59,038 nucleotides of DNA, taken from the NCBI GenBank assembly GCA_016194285.1, contig JACQBZ010000015.1, positions 1-59,038 of the forward strand, given 5' to 3'. Source of the stretch: Nitrospirota bacterium. GTDB taxonomy: Bacteria > Nitrospirota > Nitrospiria > JACQBZ01. The notes beneath the pieces were generated by a model, which ran no database searches, was not told the DNA's origin, and was given only the letters and a program-made list of their open reading frames with translations. Both the position numbers and the translations under genes were made by a program. Below are positions 7,968 to 51,417 of the stretch, one piece after another; within the stretch, counting starts at the first letter, position 1; every line of letters begins with the position of its first letter.

Positions 7968-9191
7968 ATGCCGGTTTTCCAGTACCGCGCACGGGATAAA
8001 TACGGTTCTTTGTCTACCGGCACGATCGAGACTTCCAGCCGGGACGCCGTGGCTTCGCAGTTGGATCATCTCGGTTACCACCCCGTTTTGATCGAGGAGA
8101 TTCGGAAGGAACTCGGGGCGGCCGAACTCTTCGATCGGTTCACGCGCATTTCCCCCGAGAACCTGATCATCTTTTCGCGGCAGCTCGCCACGCTCATCTC
8201 GGCCGGCCTGCCTTTTATGACCAGCTTCGACGCCCTGATCGAGCAAACCGACAATAAACGACTGAAGAACGTGATCGTGCAGGTTCGCAAGGATGTGGAA
8301 GGCGGCAGCTCCTTTTCGGATGCCCTCGCGAAACATCCGACCGTGTTCAGCAATCTTTACGTGAGCATGATCCGCGCCGGCGAGACCGGCGGCGTGCTGG
8401 ATGAAATCCTGCAACGTCTGGCGACCCTCGCGGAGCATGAAGCCGAAACCCGCGCCCGAATCAAGGCCGCCACCCGTTACCCCAAAATCGTGATCGGGGC
8501 CCTGGTGATTGCGTTCGTTATTCTGTTGCAGTTTGTGGTCCCCCGCTTTGCGGCCTTGTATGCCAACTTCAAAGCCAAATTGCCGCTGCCGACCCGCATC
8601 CTGATCGGGATCAACAATGCCGTCCAAAGCTATTGGTGGCTGATATTGGCCGTCATCGTTCTGGCCACTTTTGGGATCCGGGCCTACATCCGGACGGAAG
8701 CGGGACGGCTTTGGTGGGATGGGATGAAGATTAAGCTGCCGGTCTTCGGTCCTATCTTTCTGAAGACGGCCCTTTCCCGGTTCGCCCGTATCTTCGGGAC
8801 CTTGACCCGCAGCGGACTTTCGATTCTGCAAACCCTCGAGATCGTTTCTCAGACAGTCGGCAATACCGTCATCTCGCGGGTGGTGGACAACATTCGGGAC
8901 AGCGCCCGGCAGGGCCGCGGCATCGTCCAGCCGATGCAGGTCAGTCGGATCTTTCCACCGGTGGTGGTCCAGATGGTCTCCATTGGAGAGCAGACCGGGA
9001 AGATGGAGGAGATGCTGATGAAGGTTTCCGAATACTACGATCAAGAGGTGGAGTATTCCATTCGAAATCTGTCCACCTCCCTGGAGCCTCTGTTGCTGGC
9101 CGTCATCGGCGGAGTCGTTCTGTTTCTGGCCCTGGCCATCTTTATGCCTTGGTGGAATCTGATCAATGTCTTCAAAGGTGGCGGTGGGTAG
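7968..9191 (+). CDS. pilC: Type IV pilus inner-membrane platform protein PilC
   Basis: 407 residues from the ATG at 7968, one base after the pilB stop. The family carries two T2SSF domains of about 120 residues. Both are visible: ISPENLIIFSRQLATLISAGLPF opens the first and LKTALSRFARIFGTLTRSGLS the second. Three membrane segments occur near residues 170, 215 and 375. PilC is the platform on which the PilB motor acts. The TAG stop at 9189-9191 is followed within a few bases by a structured repeat that also occurs, inverted, after nuoL. Confidence 0.94.
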   Translation: MPVFQYRARDKYGSLSTGTIETSSRDAVASQLDHLGYHPVLIEEIRKELGAAELFDRFTRISPENLIIFSRQLATLISAGLPFMTSFDALIEQTDNKRLKNVIVQVRKDVEGGSSFSDALAKHPTVFSNLYVSMIRAGETGGVLDEILQRLATLAEHEAETRARIKAATRYPKIVIGALVIAFVILLQFVVPRFAALYANFKAKLPLPTRILIGINNAVQSYWWLILAVIVLATFGIRAYIRTEAGRLWWDGMKIKLPVFGPIFLKTALSRFARIFGTLTRSGLSILQTLEIVSQTVGNTVISRVVDNIRDSARQGRGIVQPMQVSRIFPPVVVQMVSIGEQTGKMEEMLMKVSEYYDQEVEYSIRNLSTSLEPLLLAVIGGVVLFLALAIFMPWWNLINVFKGGGG

Positions 9192-9194
9192 ATT

Positions 9195-9257
9195 CCCAGC
9201 GAGCAAGGCGAGCGAGAGGGGGAGACTCCGTCAGCGGAGGGGGCGACGTGAGCCCCT
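9195..9257 (+). repeat. Multi-hairpin dispersed repeat, copy 1
   Basis: About 63 bases directly after the pilC stop. It shares two near-identical blocks with the reverse complement of 51304-51376: one of about 23 bases beginning GCGAGCGAGAGGGGGAG, and one of about 20 bases beginning GGAGGGGGCGACG. Between the blocks is a small hairpin (CTCCG-TCAG-CGGAG). The repeat supplies the GGAGG and the GTG start of the downstream kinase gene. Confidence 0.8.
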
Positions 9258-19816: not shown

Positions 19817-20407
19817 GTGGCGCTGACCGATTATCTTACAAAGCTGGACTTTAGCAAACTCACGATGCGCGAGCGCGGTCTGGCGGTCCTGACCCTCGGT
19901 GCTGTTTTATTCCTCTTTTTGAGCTATTTCATGATCCCGATGGTCCGGAGCGCAAAAAACCTGACGGTTCAAAGGGTTGCTCTCAAAGCCGAAATCGATC
20001 AAGGAATGACGCAGATCCCCTTGCTCCGGAAACGGGCCGAAGAACTTTATAACTCGTCACAGAGCAAAGAAGCAAGCGCCGAGTTTGCGGGAAAGGCGGG
20101 GGATCTGTTTCCGGGCGGAAGCCGGCTGTCGGTGCTGTTGGAGGAGATGACACGGCTGGCCCGTTTGCGGCAGATCGAGTTTGTATCGATTCGTCCGGAA
20201 TCCGTCGAGGATAAAGGGGCCTATCTCCAACTCACGCTTCAGATTGATGTCCAGTCCCGGTTTCGCGAATTGGGAGATTATCTCCTGATGCTGGAGAATT
20301 TGCCGCGCGCGGTCGTCGTGAAAGAGGTCAAAGTCGAGACTCGGCCCGACATCAACCCGTCCATTATGGCGCATTTGAAGACAATAACGTATCTGGGCAA
20401 GGAATGA
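19817..20407 (+). CDS. pilO: Type IV pilus alignment protein PilO
   Basis: 196 residues from the GTG at 19817, preceded by AAGGAAA. One membrane segment (about 22-45), a coiled coil and a periplasmic ferredoxin-like domain (about 100-190). It forms heterodimers with PilN and contacts PilP. Its TGA (20405-20407) is the first codon of a short GAGACG...GTGAGG repeat that also begins exactly at the nuoE stop. Confidence 0.9.
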   Translation: MALTDYLTKLDFSKLTMRERGLAVLTLGAVLFLFLSYFMIPMVRSAKNLTVQRVALKAEIDQGMTQIPLLRKRAEELYNSSQSKEASAEFAGKAGDLFPGGSRLSVLLEEMTRLARLRQIEFVSIRPESVEDKGAYLQLTLQIDVQSRFRELGDYLLMLENLPRAVVVKEVKVETRPDINPSIMAHLKTITYLGKE

Positions 20408-20441
20408 GACGCGAGGGGTAAGGCGTGAGGGGTGAGGGAGG
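20405..20441 (+). repeat. GAGACG...GTGAGG intergenic repeat, copy 1
   Basis: Starts at the TGA of pilO (TGAGACGCGAGGGGTAAGG, then GCGTGAGGGGTGAGGGAGG). It consists of degenerate 7-8 base units of the form AGG(G/C)GTGAGG. A second copy begins at the nuoE stop (42543). The last unit doubles as the ribosome-binding site of pilP. Confidence 0.7.
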
Positions 20442-42010: not shown

Positions 42011-42545
42011 ATTATCCATGAATCCCGAAACGAAAAAAGTGGAATTCTCAGAGAAGGCCCAAAAAGAGATCCGGGAGTTGCTGACGCATTATCCGGACAA
42101 ACGCTCGGCGCTGCTTCCGGTCCTGAATCTGGCCCAGGCCGAGTTCGGATACATCAGCGAAGAGGTGATGATCATGGTCGCGCGACTGCTCGACCTCACG
42201 CCCCCGAAGGTTTTCGAGGTTCTGACCTTCTACACATTGTTGAACGACCGGCCGGTGGGAAAATATCTGATCCAACTCTGCCGTACGCTCTCCTGCGCGC
42301 TGGTCGGGTCCGAGAATGTCCTAGGTCATCTCAAACAACGGCTGGGGATCGAGGTTGGCGAGACGACGCGGGACGGGCTGTTCACCTTGAGAACGGTGGA
42401 ATGTCTGGCCTCCTGCGGGACGGCGCCGGTGATGCAGATCAACGGGGCGTTCTACGAAAAGCTGACGCGGGAGAAGGTAGACCGGATCCTGGACGACCTG
42501 AAACGCGGCGATCCGCCGGTCCTGAAGCCGATGGGGGAGAATTGA
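42000..42545 (+). CDS. nuoE: NADH-quinone oxidoreductase subunit E
   Basis: 181 residues from the GTG at 42000, overlapping the nuoD end by 11 bases (an ATG at 42018 is an alternative). Thioredoxin-like subunit with the [2Fe-2S] cluster N1a: Cys94 and Cys99 (LCRTLSC) and Cys135 and Cys139 (CLASC). Part of the NADH-dehydrogenase module with NuoF and NuoG. Its TGA is the first codon of the second GAGACG...GTGAGG repeat. Confidence 0.95.
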   Translation: MIGKLSMNPETKKVEFSEKAQKEIRELLTHYPDKRSALLPVLNLAQAEFGYISEEVMIMVARLLDLTPPKVFEVLTFYTLLNDRPVGKYLIQLCRTLSCALVGSENVLGHLKQRLGIEVGETTRDGLFTLRTVECLASCGTAPVMQINGAFYEKLTREKVDRILDDLKRGDPPVLKPMGEN

Positions 42546-42578
42546 GACGTAAGGCGTGAGGAGTAAGGGGTGAGGGGA
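42543..42578 (+). repeat. GAGACG...GTGAGG intergenic repeat, copy 2
   Basis: Starts at the nuoE TGA (TGAGACGTAAGGCGTGAGG), continues with GAGTAAGGGGTGAGGGGA and runs into the first GTAGGGGC palindrome. It matches the repeat beginning at the pilO stop at 20405. Confidence 0.7.
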
Positions 42579-42604
42579 GTAGGGGCGGACCTATGTGTCC
42601 GCCC
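42579..42604 (+). repeat. GTAGGGGC-type palindrome, copy A
   Basis: GTAGGGGCGGAC, then loop CTATGT, then GTCCGCCC: an 8-bp perfect stem (42583-42590 with 42597-42604) between nuoE and nuoF. It lacks the right-hand CTAC found in copies B and E. Confidence 0.75.
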
Positions 42605-43941: not shown

Positions 43942-43975
43942 CCTGTAGGGGCGACGCATGCGTCGCCCCTACAGG
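43942..43975 (+). repeat. GTAGGGGC-type palindrome, copy B
   Basis: A perfect 34-base inverted repeat centred between 43958 and 43959 with core GCGACGCATGCGTCGC, between nuoF and nuoG. A complete member of the family with GTAGGGG and CCCCTAC at both ends. Confidence 0.85.
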
Positions 43976-43998: not shown

Positions 43999-46740
43999 TT
44001 GGCTGACACGGACACGGTCAAATTGAAAACCGAGACGGTGAAGCTGACGATCGACGGCCGCGAGGTGGAGGTTCCCAAGGGCACGCTGGTGATCGAGGCC
44101 GCACGGAAACTGGGGATCGAGATCCCGTTCTTCTGCTACCACCAGAAATTGAAATCCGACGGCAACTGCCGGATGTGCCTGGTCGCGGTCGAAAAGATGC
44201 CGAAGCTCCAGGTTTCCTGTTCCGTCCCGGTTTCCGAGGGCATGGTCGTCCATGCCAACACGACCGTTGTACAGGAGGCGCGCAAGGGCGTGCTGGACTT
44301 TCTGCTGGCCAATCATCCGTTGGACTGTCCGATCTGCGATGAAGGCGGCCGATGTCCGCTCCAGGACTATTCCCAGAAATACACCGCCTACGGGCAGTTC
44401 AAGGAAGAGAAGCGGATTTATGAAAAGGAGTTTTTCAGCCCGCTGATCGAAAAGGAGATGAACCGCTGCATCCAGTGCATGCGGTGCGTCCGCTATTGCG
44501 ACGAGGTGATCGATTCCAAGGCCCTTTCCTCCGTTAACCGCGGCTATCACATCGAGATCGGCCATTACGGCGAAAAGCAGCTCGAGTGCGAGTTCTGCGG
44601 CGGCTGCGTCCAGATCTGTCCGGTCGGAGCGCTCCTCAACCGTCTGCCGCTGTATGAATACCGCCCCTGGATGCTGACCCGGACCGAGACGACCTGCGCC
44701 TATTGCGCCGACGGCTGCTCGCTCCGGCTCGAAAGCCGTCCGCAGACCCGCGAGGTGATCGAGGTGACCTCGTTCTGGGGAAACGAGACGAAGACCGTCT
44801 GGGGGAAAGGACGGAACGAGGGCGATCTCTGCGCGAAAGGTTATTTCGGTTATCAATTCGTCAACAGCCCGAACCGGCTGACGAAACCGCTGGTGCGCAA
44901 GGACGGCCGGAGGGACGGTCCGCTGGTCGAGGCCTCGTGGGAGGAGGCCCTGGAACGGGTTGCAGAAGAATTCGGCCGGATCAAGGGCCTTCACGGCGGC
45001 GAGGCCTTCGGGGCTTTGGCCTCGGCCCGTTGCACGAATGAGAATCTCTACGTTTTTCAGAAATTCATCCGGCTCGTCCTCGGGAGTCCGAACGTCGACA
45101 GCAGCGTGCGGTACGGAATGGTGAACGCGGCCCGGGCGTTGACCGAGCTGACCGGAACGCCGCGATGGCTCCCGTCGTATGAGGACATCACGCAGGCCGA
45201 TCTGGTTTTCGTGATCGGAACGGACATCACGCATTCCAATCCGATCGTCGGGCTGAAGGTCAAGGCCGCGGCGAAGAAGGGCGCGAAGCTGATCGTCGGC
45301 TCGCCGCTCCGGCCGAGGATCAGCACGTTGAGCCACATCGTCAACCTGGCGACGCGCCATCTGGCCCACCGCCCGGGCGCGGAGCGGATCGTGGTGATCG
45401 GGATGGTGAAGGCCGTGCTGGAGCAGGGCAAGGCGGCCGCGGGACTTGCCGAGCATCCTTCCATCGCCCGATTGCGCGAAACGGTTTCGAAGCTGTCCCA
45501 AAAACAGATCGAGTCCGCCACCGGTCTGAGCTATGATGCAATCCGTGCCGCCGCCGAAGAATGGACCGCGGCCTCCCGGGCCGTGATCGTCTTCGGGGAG
45601 TCGATTGTCCGGGCGCGGGACGGGTATGAAACTGTCCGCATTTTAGGAGACCTGGCACTGCTGACCGGTAAATTGACCGCGGAGGGATGTGGTCTGGCCC
45701 CATTGTATGAGGAAAATAACGAGATGGGCGCTTACGAGATGGGCGTCGTTCCAGACCGCCTCCCTGGCCTGGGCCGGTTGGATCACGAACCGGATCGTGA
45801 GCGCGTCCAACGGGCCTGGAAGGAACCGATCCCGACCGGTCCCGGCCTTACGATGATCGAAATGCTTGCGGCCGCACGGGAGGGAAGGATCCGGGCGCTC
45901 TATCTGATGGGCGAGAATCCGGTCGGAACGCTGCCGGCCTCGGCGGGCGCGGCCGAAGCACTGGAGTCGGCCGAATTCGTCGTAAGCCAGGACCTGTTTC
46001 TGACCGAGACCGGGGAAAAGGCCGATGTGGTATTGCCGGCCGCAAGCTTTGCCGAACAGAACGGGACCTTCACGAATCAGGAGGGACGCGTCCAGCCGGT
46101 GCGGAAGGCCATCGAACCGATTCACGGGACGCGGCCGGACTGGGAAATCCTCTCCCAGATCGCGGTCGAGATGGGTCATCCGCTGGAGTATCAGGACGGC
46201 GCCGAGGTTTCACACGAGATCGCACGGCTCTGGCCTGCCTGCCGGCCAGGCGGGCCCGGCTGGCGCGAAATTCCGGGACGATCGGAGCCGGCCGTTGCGG
46301 CGGAGCGGTATCGGGCCGAGCGGCTGACCGAGGGAATTTCGGAACGGTATCGCATCGATTCCGGGGAAAAGGTCCCGGCGTCGTCCAACGGGCGATTCCA
46401 TCTCGCGATGGGGCCGTTGTTGTTCCATTCCGGGAAAATGTCCCTCCAGGCCGACGGGTTGATGAAGATTCAGAACCGGCCTTTTCTCTACATGGCGCCG
46501 GAGGATGCCGAGCGGTTTGGGGTGGGGGAAGGACAGTCGGTGCGGCTCCGTTCGGCCCGGGGCCCGGGATCGGTCGAGGTCGCGGTCAAGATCGACGCGA
46601 AATACCCGCCGGGAATGGTCTTCTTCCCCGAATCGTTTAATGAGCCGCCGGTGAAGGATCTGTTGACGGTCGAGCTGGACAAGGCGTCTCACGTCCCGGT
46701 GTTCAAGACGGCCGAGGTCGTGATTGAGAAGATAACGTAG
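43999..46740 (+). CDS. nuoG: NADH-quinone oxidoreductase subunit G
   Basis: 913 residues from a TTG at 43999 with GAGGAG upstream. In order: a [2Fe-2S] ferredoxin domain (CYHQKLKSDGNCRMCLVAV and a later Cys), the His-Cys motif HPLDCPICDEGGRCPLQ, two [4Fe-4S] clusters (CIQCMRCVRYC and CEFCGGCVQICP), then a molybdopterin-oxidoreductase-like domain with CAYCADGC and GDLCAKG, the N7 cluster also seen in E. coli and Thermus. At residues 745-752 (ACRPGGP) the gene carries a 23-bp GC-rich repeat shared with nuoL. Its TAG stop is formed by the GTAG of palindrome C. Confidence 0.95.
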   Translation: MADTDTVKLKTETVKLTIDGREVEVPKGTLVIEAARKLGIEIPFFCYHQKLKSDGNCRMCLVAVEKMPKLQVSCSVPVSEGMVVHANTTVVQEARKGVLDFLLANHPLDCPICDEGGRCPLQDYSQKYTAYGQFKEEKRIYEKEFFSPLIEKEMNRCIQCMRCVRYCDEVIDSKALSSVNRGYHIEIGHYGEKQLECEFCGGCVQICPVGALLNRLPLYEYRPWMLTRTETTCAYCADGCSLRLESRPQTREVIEVTSFWGNETKTVWGKGRNEGDLCAKGYFGYQFVNSPNRLTKPLVRKDGRRDGPLVEASWEEALERVAEEFGRIKGLHGGEAFGALASARCTNENLYVFQKFIRLVLGSPNVDSSVRYGMVNAARALTELTGTPRWLPSYEDITQADLVFVIGTDITHSNPIVGLKVKAAAKKGAKLIVGSPLRPRISTLSHIVNLATRHLAHRPGAERIVVIGMVKAVLEQGKAAAGLAEHPSIARLRETVSKLSQKQIESATGLSYDAIRAAAEEWTAASRAVIVFGESIVRARDGYETVRILGDLALLTGKLTAEGCGLAPLYEENNEMGAYEMGVVPDRLPGLGRLDHEPDRERVQRAWKEPIPTGPGLTMIEMLAAAREGRIRALYLMGENPVGTLPASAGAAEALESAEFVVSQDLFLTETGEKADVVLPAASFAEQNGTFTNQEGRVQPVRKAIEPIHGTRPDWEILSQIAVEMGHPLEYQDGAEVSHEIARLWPACRPGGPGWREIPGRSEPAVAAERYRAERLTEGISERYRIDSGEKVPASSNGRFHLAMGPLLFHSGKMSLQADGLMKIQNRPFLYMAPEDAERFGVGEGQSVRLRSARGPGSVEVAVKIDAKYPPGMVFFPESFNEPPVKDLLTVELDKASHVPVFKTAEVVIEKIT
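46233..46255 (+). repeat. Intragenic GC-rich repeat, nuoG copy
   Basis: GCCTGCCTGCCGG, then CCAGGCGGGC, read as PACRPGGP. 21 of 23 bases match the nuoL copy at 50892-50914, which is read in a different frame. Confidence 0.75.
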
Positions 46741-46761
46741 GGGCGATCCTTGTGATCGCCC
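46737..46761 (+). repeat. GTAGGGGC-type palindrome, copy C
   Basis: GTAGGGGCGATC, loop CTTGT, GATCGCCC: an 8-bp stem (46741-46748 with 46754-46761). Its first four bases GTAG contain the nuoG stop codon. Confidence 0.75.
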
Positions 46762-46786: not shown

Positions 46787-46809
46787 GGGGCGAATACAAG
46801 ATTCGCCCC
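46787..46809 (+). repeat. GTAGGGGC-type palindrome, copy D
   Basis: GGGGCGAAT, loop ACAAG, ATTCGCCCC: a 9-bp perfect stem (46787-46795 with 46801-46809), 25 bases after copy C, before nuoH. The GTAG ends are absent (ATGGGG on the left). Confidence 0.65.
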
Positions 46810-46839
46810 TTATATGGAAATAATCGCGGAGACGGATGA

Positions 46840-47862
46840 ATGATCGATATCGCTTTGAATTTAATCGTGGTGCTCGTGACGATCGGCGTCGTGATGGTCA
46901 CGGTGCTGCTTCACGTGGCGTACCTGACCTATTTTGAGCGGAAAATCCTCGGATGGATGCAGGATCGGATGGGTCCCATGGAGGTGGGCTACCACGGGCT
47001 GCTGCAGCCGATCGCGGACGGGCTGAAACTTTTTTTTAAAGAAGACATCGTTCCGGCGCAGGCCAACAAGATCATTTTCACCTTGGCGCCGATTCTGGTT
47101 TTGGTCCCGGCCCTCATCGGTTTTGCGGTGATCCCATTCGGTCGGGATTCCATCCACATTTTCGGTCTGACCTTTCGCCCGTACGTCACCGATATCAATA
47201 TCGGGATCCTCTACATTCTGGCCTTTGCCTCGATCGGGGCCTACGGGGTTTTATGGGGGGGGTGGGCCTCGAACAACAAATACTCCCTGCTCGGCGGCCT
47301 GCGATCGGCGGCCCAGGTCATCAGCTACGAACTGTCACTGGGCCTGGCGATCGTCGGTGTGCTGCTGATGGCCGGCTCGCTGAGCCTCGTCAAGATCACG
47401 GAGGCCCAGGGCGGGGGGCTGCTGCACTGGTTCATCCTCCCGCAGTTCGTGGCCTTCGTGATTTATCTGATCTCGGCGATCGCCGAGACGAACCGGTTGC
47501 CGTTCGACCTTCCGGAGGCCGAAAGCGAATTGGTGGCCGGCTTTTTCACCGAGTACAGCGGGATGCGATTTGCCTTTTTCTTTTTGGCCGAATATGCTAA
47601 CATGATCCTCGTTTCCTGTATCGCCACGATCCTGTTTCTGGGCGGGTGGCACGCGCCGTTCGAGGCCCTGGGATTTATCCCGCCGGTCCTCTGGTTCGTG
47701 GTCAAGGTCTATTTCTTTTTGTTCTTTTACATCTGGATCCGCGGAACGCTGCCGCGTCTCCGGTATGACCAACTCATGATGTTCGGCTGGAAGGTGATGA
47801 TCCCGCTGGCGCTGGCCAATATTCTGGTCACGTCGGCGGTCTTGTATTTTGTCAGGGTGTAA
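46840..47862 (+). CDS. nuoH: NADH-quinone oxidoreductase subunit H
   Basis: 340 residues with about eight membrane helices. Forms the quinone entry channel with NuoA and NuoD. Conserved parts: [45 protein letters not shown], and the acidic loop [31 protein letters not shown]. It comes after two stem-loop repeats, with 100 bases to the nuoG stop. Confidence 0.97.
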
Positions 47863-51303: not shown

Positions 51304-51376
51304 AGGGGCTCGCGTCGCCCCCTCCACCGGCATAGCCGGATGGAGCCTCCCCCTCTCGCTCGCTTTGCGAGCTGGG
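51304..51376 (-). repeat. Multi-hairpin dispersed repeat, copy 2 (inverted)
   Basis: The reverse complement of this segment matches copy 1 at 9195-9257 over both outer blocks. It carries a central hairpin (GGCTCCATCCGGC-TAT-GCCGGTGGAG, imperfect) and GCTCGC-AAA-GCGAGC. It lies between nuoL and nuoM in antisense orientation to them. Confidence 0.82.
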
Positions 51377-51417
51377 TAGATCCACACGGGCGGCGCAAAC
51401 CAGAGGGCCATCTGGCT

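Follow-up and report, generated by a model that had tools for sequence, protein, structure and literature searches.

The 3' end of nuoG in a Nitrospirota genome coincides with a palindromic repeat, which raises the question of whether the repeat supplies the stop codon and how a gene and a repeat come to share these letters. We analyzed the stretch of 59,038 nucleotides that contains the gene (the window; contig JACQBZ010000015.1), the assembly to which it belongs (the source genome, G000) and its relatives among Nitrospirota groundwater MAGs, namely two congeners (G001 and G002) and four other genomes of the family (G003 to G006).

The nuoG stop codon is the tail of a REP

Positions 46737 to 46740 of the window read GTAG, and the last three of these letters are the in-frame TAG that closes an open reading frame of 913 codons (Table 1). 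The assignments of nuoG, nuoH and neighbouring genes are backed by Pfam domains. TAG is the amber codon (it is labelled "opal" in PMC3733652). The gene ends with AAG-ATA-ACG-TAG, GTAG being the G of the final sense codon plus the stop. The same four letters form the unpaired tail of a hairpin of 25 bp in all, with an 8-bp stem that starts immediately behind the tail and a 5-nt loop; a second exact copy of GTAGGGGCGATCCTTGTGATCGCCC is found on contig C82 of the source genome. The claim of the sequence-only reading that a GTAG palindrome provides the TAG of nuoG is confirmed, and the repeat is a GTAG-tagged REP.

The repeat faces an inverted partner with a degenerate tail. The same head-to-head pair, with both tails intact, occurs on C82 and in G002. 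As RNA, the nuoG hairpin is predicted to fold with -14.8 kcal/mol (z -2.8), and both hairpins between nuoG and nuoH together with -42.4 kcal/mol (z -4.9). A distant second nuoG-like gene (40% identity) is located on contig C87 (positions 442-1005) and is present in the congeners too.

As available in excerpt, the paper of Di Nocera, De Gregorio and Rocco (2013; PMC3733652) describes a superfamily of such repeats with a GTAG tail, stems of 6-13 bp, short loops, head-to-head dimers, many copies and a preference for 3' ends, and states that the GTAG termini often give a TAG stop to flanking ORFs. The finding at nuoG is known in kind, since this statement covers it. The nuoG REP resembles the superfamily in every respect compared: unpaired GTAG, 6-13 bp stem with a short loop in a total of 20-40 bp, high copy number, head-to-head dimers, and a mostly extragenic location near 3' ends. 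The text of PMC3733652 gives no match for Nitrospira and, unlike the present analysis, its excerpts contain no ortholog comparison of stop positions and no exchange of hairpin bodies behind a fixed stop.

Table 1. Genes and repeats discussed in the text, with positions in the window
Feature	Positions	Strand	Remarks
Inverted-repeat element of about 80 bp	9184-9257	-	pilC stop TAG (9189-9191) lies inside one end
Heptad-type array overlapping the pilO TGA	20405-20438	+	Different repeat kind from GTAG REPs
Heptad-type array overlapping the nuoE TGA	42543-42576	+	Different repeat kind from GTAG REPs
REP hairpin GTAGGGGCGGACCTATGTGTCCGCCC, nuoE-nuoF spacer	42579-42604	+	Not a stop
Perfect REP palindrome GTAGGGGCGACGCATGCGTCGCCCCTAC, nuoF-nuoG spacer	43945-43972	+	6 nt past the nuoF TGA; not a stop
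nuoG CDS	43999-46740	+	TTG start, TAG stop; Pfam Molybdopterin, NADH-G_4Fe-4S_3, Fer2_4
GTAG-tagged REP hairpin GTAGGGGCGATCCTTGTGATCGCCC	46737-46761	+	nuoG 3' end
nuoG stop TAG	46738-46740	+	Part of the REP tail GTAG
Inverted partner hairpin	46787-46813	-	Degenerate tail ATAA where GTAG expected; head-to-head pair with 46737-46761
nuoH	46840-47862	+	Next gene 3' of the hairpin pair; Pfam
Second copy of the element of about 80 bp	51304-51387	+	5 nt past the nuoL TGA

Other repeats in the window

The sequence-only reading had treated the repeats at pilO, nuoE, pilC, nuoL and nuoG as one class. This pooled three distinct kinds (heptad arrays, the 80-bp element and GTAG hairpins), and a single kind for the whole window was rejected. 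Repeats had also been placed just after pilC and nuoL, which is right for nuoL; the pilC TAG lies inside the element. The pilO and nuoE arrays both begin with TGAGACG at the TGA, have units such as GTAAGGC or GTGAGGA, and resemble arrays elsewhere in the genome. With the pilC TAG inside the 80-bp element, a gene stop is also contained in a second kind of repeat, unrelated to the REPs. Among 27 tails of this element, the stop came from its GTAG end in 2 of the small sample of 7 that face a 3' end within 60 bp. The three kinds are alike in overlapping or abutting stop codons; nothing in the data shows a common mechanism.

Position of GTAG tails relative to genes

The pattern GTAGGGGCR..CGCCC occurs four times in the window versus 0.03 expected. 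A looser pattern gave 62+58 matches in the 2.31-Mb assembly versus 7+13 for a reversed control, symmetric REP copies matching on both strands. We scored 157 hairpin tails in repeat-bearing stretches, rather than whole genomes, of G000 (100 of 120 places) and G001 (leaving out some listed places on C31, C32 and C35), plus three loci of G002; for G002 and G004, places are among the matches listed. Genes were called with a custom codon-usage caller rather than a published program, and because repeat-bearing stretches were analyzed, the gene sample is skewed to repeat neighbours.

Within 60 bp, 72 of the 157 tails point to a gene 3' end, 34 to a 5' start and 51 to no called gene edge; 4 of the 157 are close to the border of a fetched locus. 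For 30 of the 72 tails facing a 3' end (18 in G000, 10 in G001, 2 in G002) the gene stops at the TAG of the REP, and every other offset accounts for at most three. Since the 30 include orthologues (nuoG from three genomes, greA and a propeller gene from two each), they represent about 26 distinct gene ends. One tail facing a 3' end lies inside the gene, at offset -29; with this tail omitted, 30 of 71 at the stop compares with a uniform spread over offsets at p = 6e-34. TAG is one of three stops and is often preceded by G, which would favor a chance overlap of unrelated hairpins and stops, but a peak of this height at one exact offset makes chance extremely improbable, and we rejected it on the offset histogram.

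The tie between repeats and gene ends, suggested earlier from the window, extends to the stretches scored here. The stronger suggestion that repeats enter or are tolerated only at gene ends does not hold, given the tails that face starts or no called gene edge within 60 bp and an rfaE2 gene in G003 that reads through a REP. In-frame REPs 3' of live stops are also found (12 of 41, hand count), with no clear depletion. In several places (L027:1502-1527, L134:2012-2037, also L175 and L186) a single 28-bp REP palindrome makes up the entire gap between convergent genes and gives a TAG to both, one per strand.

The share of tails located at the stop is not peculiar to REPs: 30 of 71 REP tails compare with 23 of 59 ordinary, non-REP GTAGs after stops (p = 0.33). 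Such equality is the expected outcome if REPs insert directly 3' of an existing GTAG without bringing the stop. Many noncoding GTAGs close to the end of a gene consist of a TAG stop and the G before it; REPs would accumulate at such sites, and in sister species the same stop could be hit by different REPs. The letters upstream of the GTAG look like any other gene sequence, and no motif is evident in them by eye, which also agrees with this main rival. On the other side, REP-less orthologs mostly end with TAA or TGA without GTAG (nuoG, greA, the propeller gene, gatA, L005, L132). Published cleavage by TnpA-REP, as excerpted from PMC8266576, takes place at a CT close to the REP, and the GTAG is compared to a guide within the element. 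With the gene comparisons given below, we regard insertion next to an existing GTAG as less likely than a stop brought by the REP tail, though worth keeping in view; the relatives compared stand too far apart to offer the clean empty sites that would separate the two accounts.

The end of nuoG in related genomes

Junctions at the end of nuoG were compared in six family genomes. Both congeners have the identical ACG-TAG, but with a different hairpin body (GGGCAGGGCTTGCCCTGCCC). In G004 the gene ends with TCG-TAG, and what follows resembles a degraded REP. No repeat is present in G003 and G005, where the gene ends one codon sooner, with GCT-TAA and GTT-TAA, and the spacers 3' of nuoG are nearly identical. 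The NuoG C-terminus is EKIT with the repeat in the source genome versus EKA and EKV in the repeat-less family members.

The sequence-only reading had proposed this comparison of C-termini and spacers, and had named the same stop without a repeat as the pattern that would speak against it. This pattern is absent for nuoG, because the repeat-less relatives stop elsewhere, namely at a TAA one codon earlier. It is present at greA, gatA and the propeller gene, where REP-less relatives have TAA at the same codon, so that the earlier interpretation as a whole is partly supported.

Among 80 public Nitrospiria nuoG loci, the GTAGGGG tail at the stop was found in one, that of G004, and 79 were without. 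In the NuoG tree G004 joins G005 (support about 0.83, with remote outgroups). The glpK and propeller-gene trees place G003 with G005, and the greA and gatA trees G004 with G005. Because the family gene trees disagree, one gain of the nuoG repeat or two are both compatible with the data.

These distributions bear on the possibility that a hairpin abutting the stop was selected for its function (ribosome stalling, mRNA protection or nuo subunit balance). The strong RNA fold would agree with a function, as would the occurrence of REPs between nuo genes at the three junctions E/F, F/G and G/H and the report that E. coli REPs stall ribosomes when they lie no more than 15 nt from a stop (quoted in the available part of PMC12306157). 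The E. coli repeats likewise have the hairpin directly behind the stop, but there a regulatory effect was tested, whereas we compare sequence alone. The lack of the nuoG repeat in G003 and G005 and its rarity among the public loci argue against selected placement, which we consider improbable.

Other genes that end in a REP

At greA the TAG of a GTAG repeat is the stop in 6 of 7 family genomes, the exception being G003, which has TAA and no repeat. Each of the three genomes of the genus has a body of its own, and G004, G005 and G006 have one of the GGTTCGCGAACC type. The propeller gene has a repeat stop in G000, G001, G004 and G006 and a degraded one in G002; G003 and G005 use TAA at that codon. 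For gatA the repeat stop is confined to G000; G001 and G003 to G006 have TAA at the same codon, and G002 has GTAGGGG without a hairpin. Two genomes have a repeat-supplied stop at rfaE2, namely G000, where the gene is one codon longer, and G005, where the body is a different one; G001 and G002 have TAA. In G003 a REP of the G005 type lies in another frame and is read through, appending CRGGFKTRPYSATP (L283).

For glpK, G002 has TGA-CCG-TAG, with a TGA two codons before the in-frame REP TAG. In G000 and G001 the TGA is gone and the gene stops at the REP TAG; G004 has the TGA without such a repeat. Similarly, the L091 gene ends in G001 with a TAA 11 nt ahead of a REP, and in G000 at the REP TAG, four codons later. 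The L027 gene of G001 has a TAA followed by a degraded REP.

Relative to a REP-less ortholog, the stop is shifted in 8 of 14 REP-terminated cases versus 52 of 274 repeat-free ortholog pairs, in a comparison whose pairs are not independent, whose REP class takes in any GTAGGGG at a stop, and whose hand tally of 14 omitted the hairpin-less gatA of G002, the gene before gatA in G003 and the diverged L083 gene. The other 6 of 14 stops are unmoved (greA, gatA, the propeller gene, a second L027 gene, the L150 gene and rfaE2 of G005). C-terminal changes are small (-2 to +5 codons) and no gross truncation was seen; insertion deep in a gene with truncation was rejected.

For insertion next to an existing GTAG, the six unmoved stops and the three bodies at the greA stop are favorable, but the commoner stop shifts than in controls and the later takeover at glpK and the L091 gene are not. 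Among eight gene ends common to two or more genomes, six have the same stop with at least two different bodies among the carriers, and within the genus the body differs at 4 of 7 shared gene ends (hand count). One might see in this a homing of GTAG REPs to GTA(G) at stops, where they would be exchanged in place, unrelated bodies succeeding each other at one fixed stop across species and one 28-bp palindrome ending two convergent genes; we find such use of stops as landing pads doubtful.

Origin of the repeat-supplied stops

We consider it probable, on balance, that a REP came to rest at the end of the gene, that its tail became the stop codon, and that the need for a stop now holds the tail while the bodies turn over. 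At nuoG the REP would have settled at the old stop or within a few codons of it. A REP near a gene end would offer an in-frame TAG, and the old stop could then be lost harmlessly. The TTTAACG of the empty site in G005, set against ATAACG-TAG in the source genome, would correspond to a 2-nt deletion that shifted the frame onto the REP TAG. The latter would become essential once the old stop was lost, and for this reason selection would retain the tail and leave the hairpin free to decay or to be replaced by other REPs. By analogy, a hairpin right behind the stop may affect release or the stability of the upstream mRNA.

The anatomy, the reading frames and the intermediate states can be read directly; we infer the sequence in which the events took place and whatever part a RAYT may have had. 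The nuoG junctions in the six family genomes and the genome-level overlap with stops support capture of the tail as a stop, as do the more frequent stop shifts than in repeat-free pairs and the different bodies behind shared stops. The states of glpK (G002 and G004 versus G000 and G001) and of the L091 gene would be intermediates, the L027 gene of G001 a stop kept during decay of the body, and rfaE2 of G003 the out-of-frame outcome. Against capture stand the unmoved stops, the similar share of ordinary GTAGs at the stop, the in-frame REPs past live stops, the discordant gene trees and the lack of a REP-flanked RAYT.

Concerning the last point, the source genome has four Y1_Tnp genes, and none of the four loci (2.2-3.3 kb) carries a GTAGGGG repeat, an absence that weighs little because the assembly is 88.6% complete. 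Assignment to a REPtron (RAYT-REP system) was rejected, as no Y1 transposase flanked by cognate REPs was found.

Capture of this kind bears on the question of where and how REPs insert. When a REP serves as a stop its tail is held in place, and the ends of orthologous genes therefore preserve a history of the REP families that have arrived and disappeared there. The genes described above, found in empty, intermediate, captured and read-through form, offer natural experiments in how REPs insert and how new stop codons are born. Beyond the known supply of stops, the relatives compared here have, judging from their aligned gene ends, a fixed stop with a hairpin behind it that varies among species.

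Exchange of REPs at one chromosomal place has a parallel in the REP orthoswitch (Nunvar 2013; PMC3686654), in which, according to the available excerpt, related strains have different REP classes at the same location, but around orthologous RAYT genes rather than at gene stops. The REP literature searched, as far as its excerpts go, contains no account of bodies exchanging behind a fixed stop or of capture intermediates. REPINs (Bertels and Rainey 2011; PMC3116915) are likewise inverted REP pairs that act as a mobile unit, and the excerpts report new REPINs in or beside old ones; in contrast to the repeats described here, stop codons are not mentioned (0 matches in the text). At L003 (about 1489-1528) and L116, a REP seems to have inserted in the remnant of an older one, with GTAGGGGCGCAT preceding a complete GTAGGGGCGACG palindrome; in both genomes the gene upstream ends at the TAG of the remnant.
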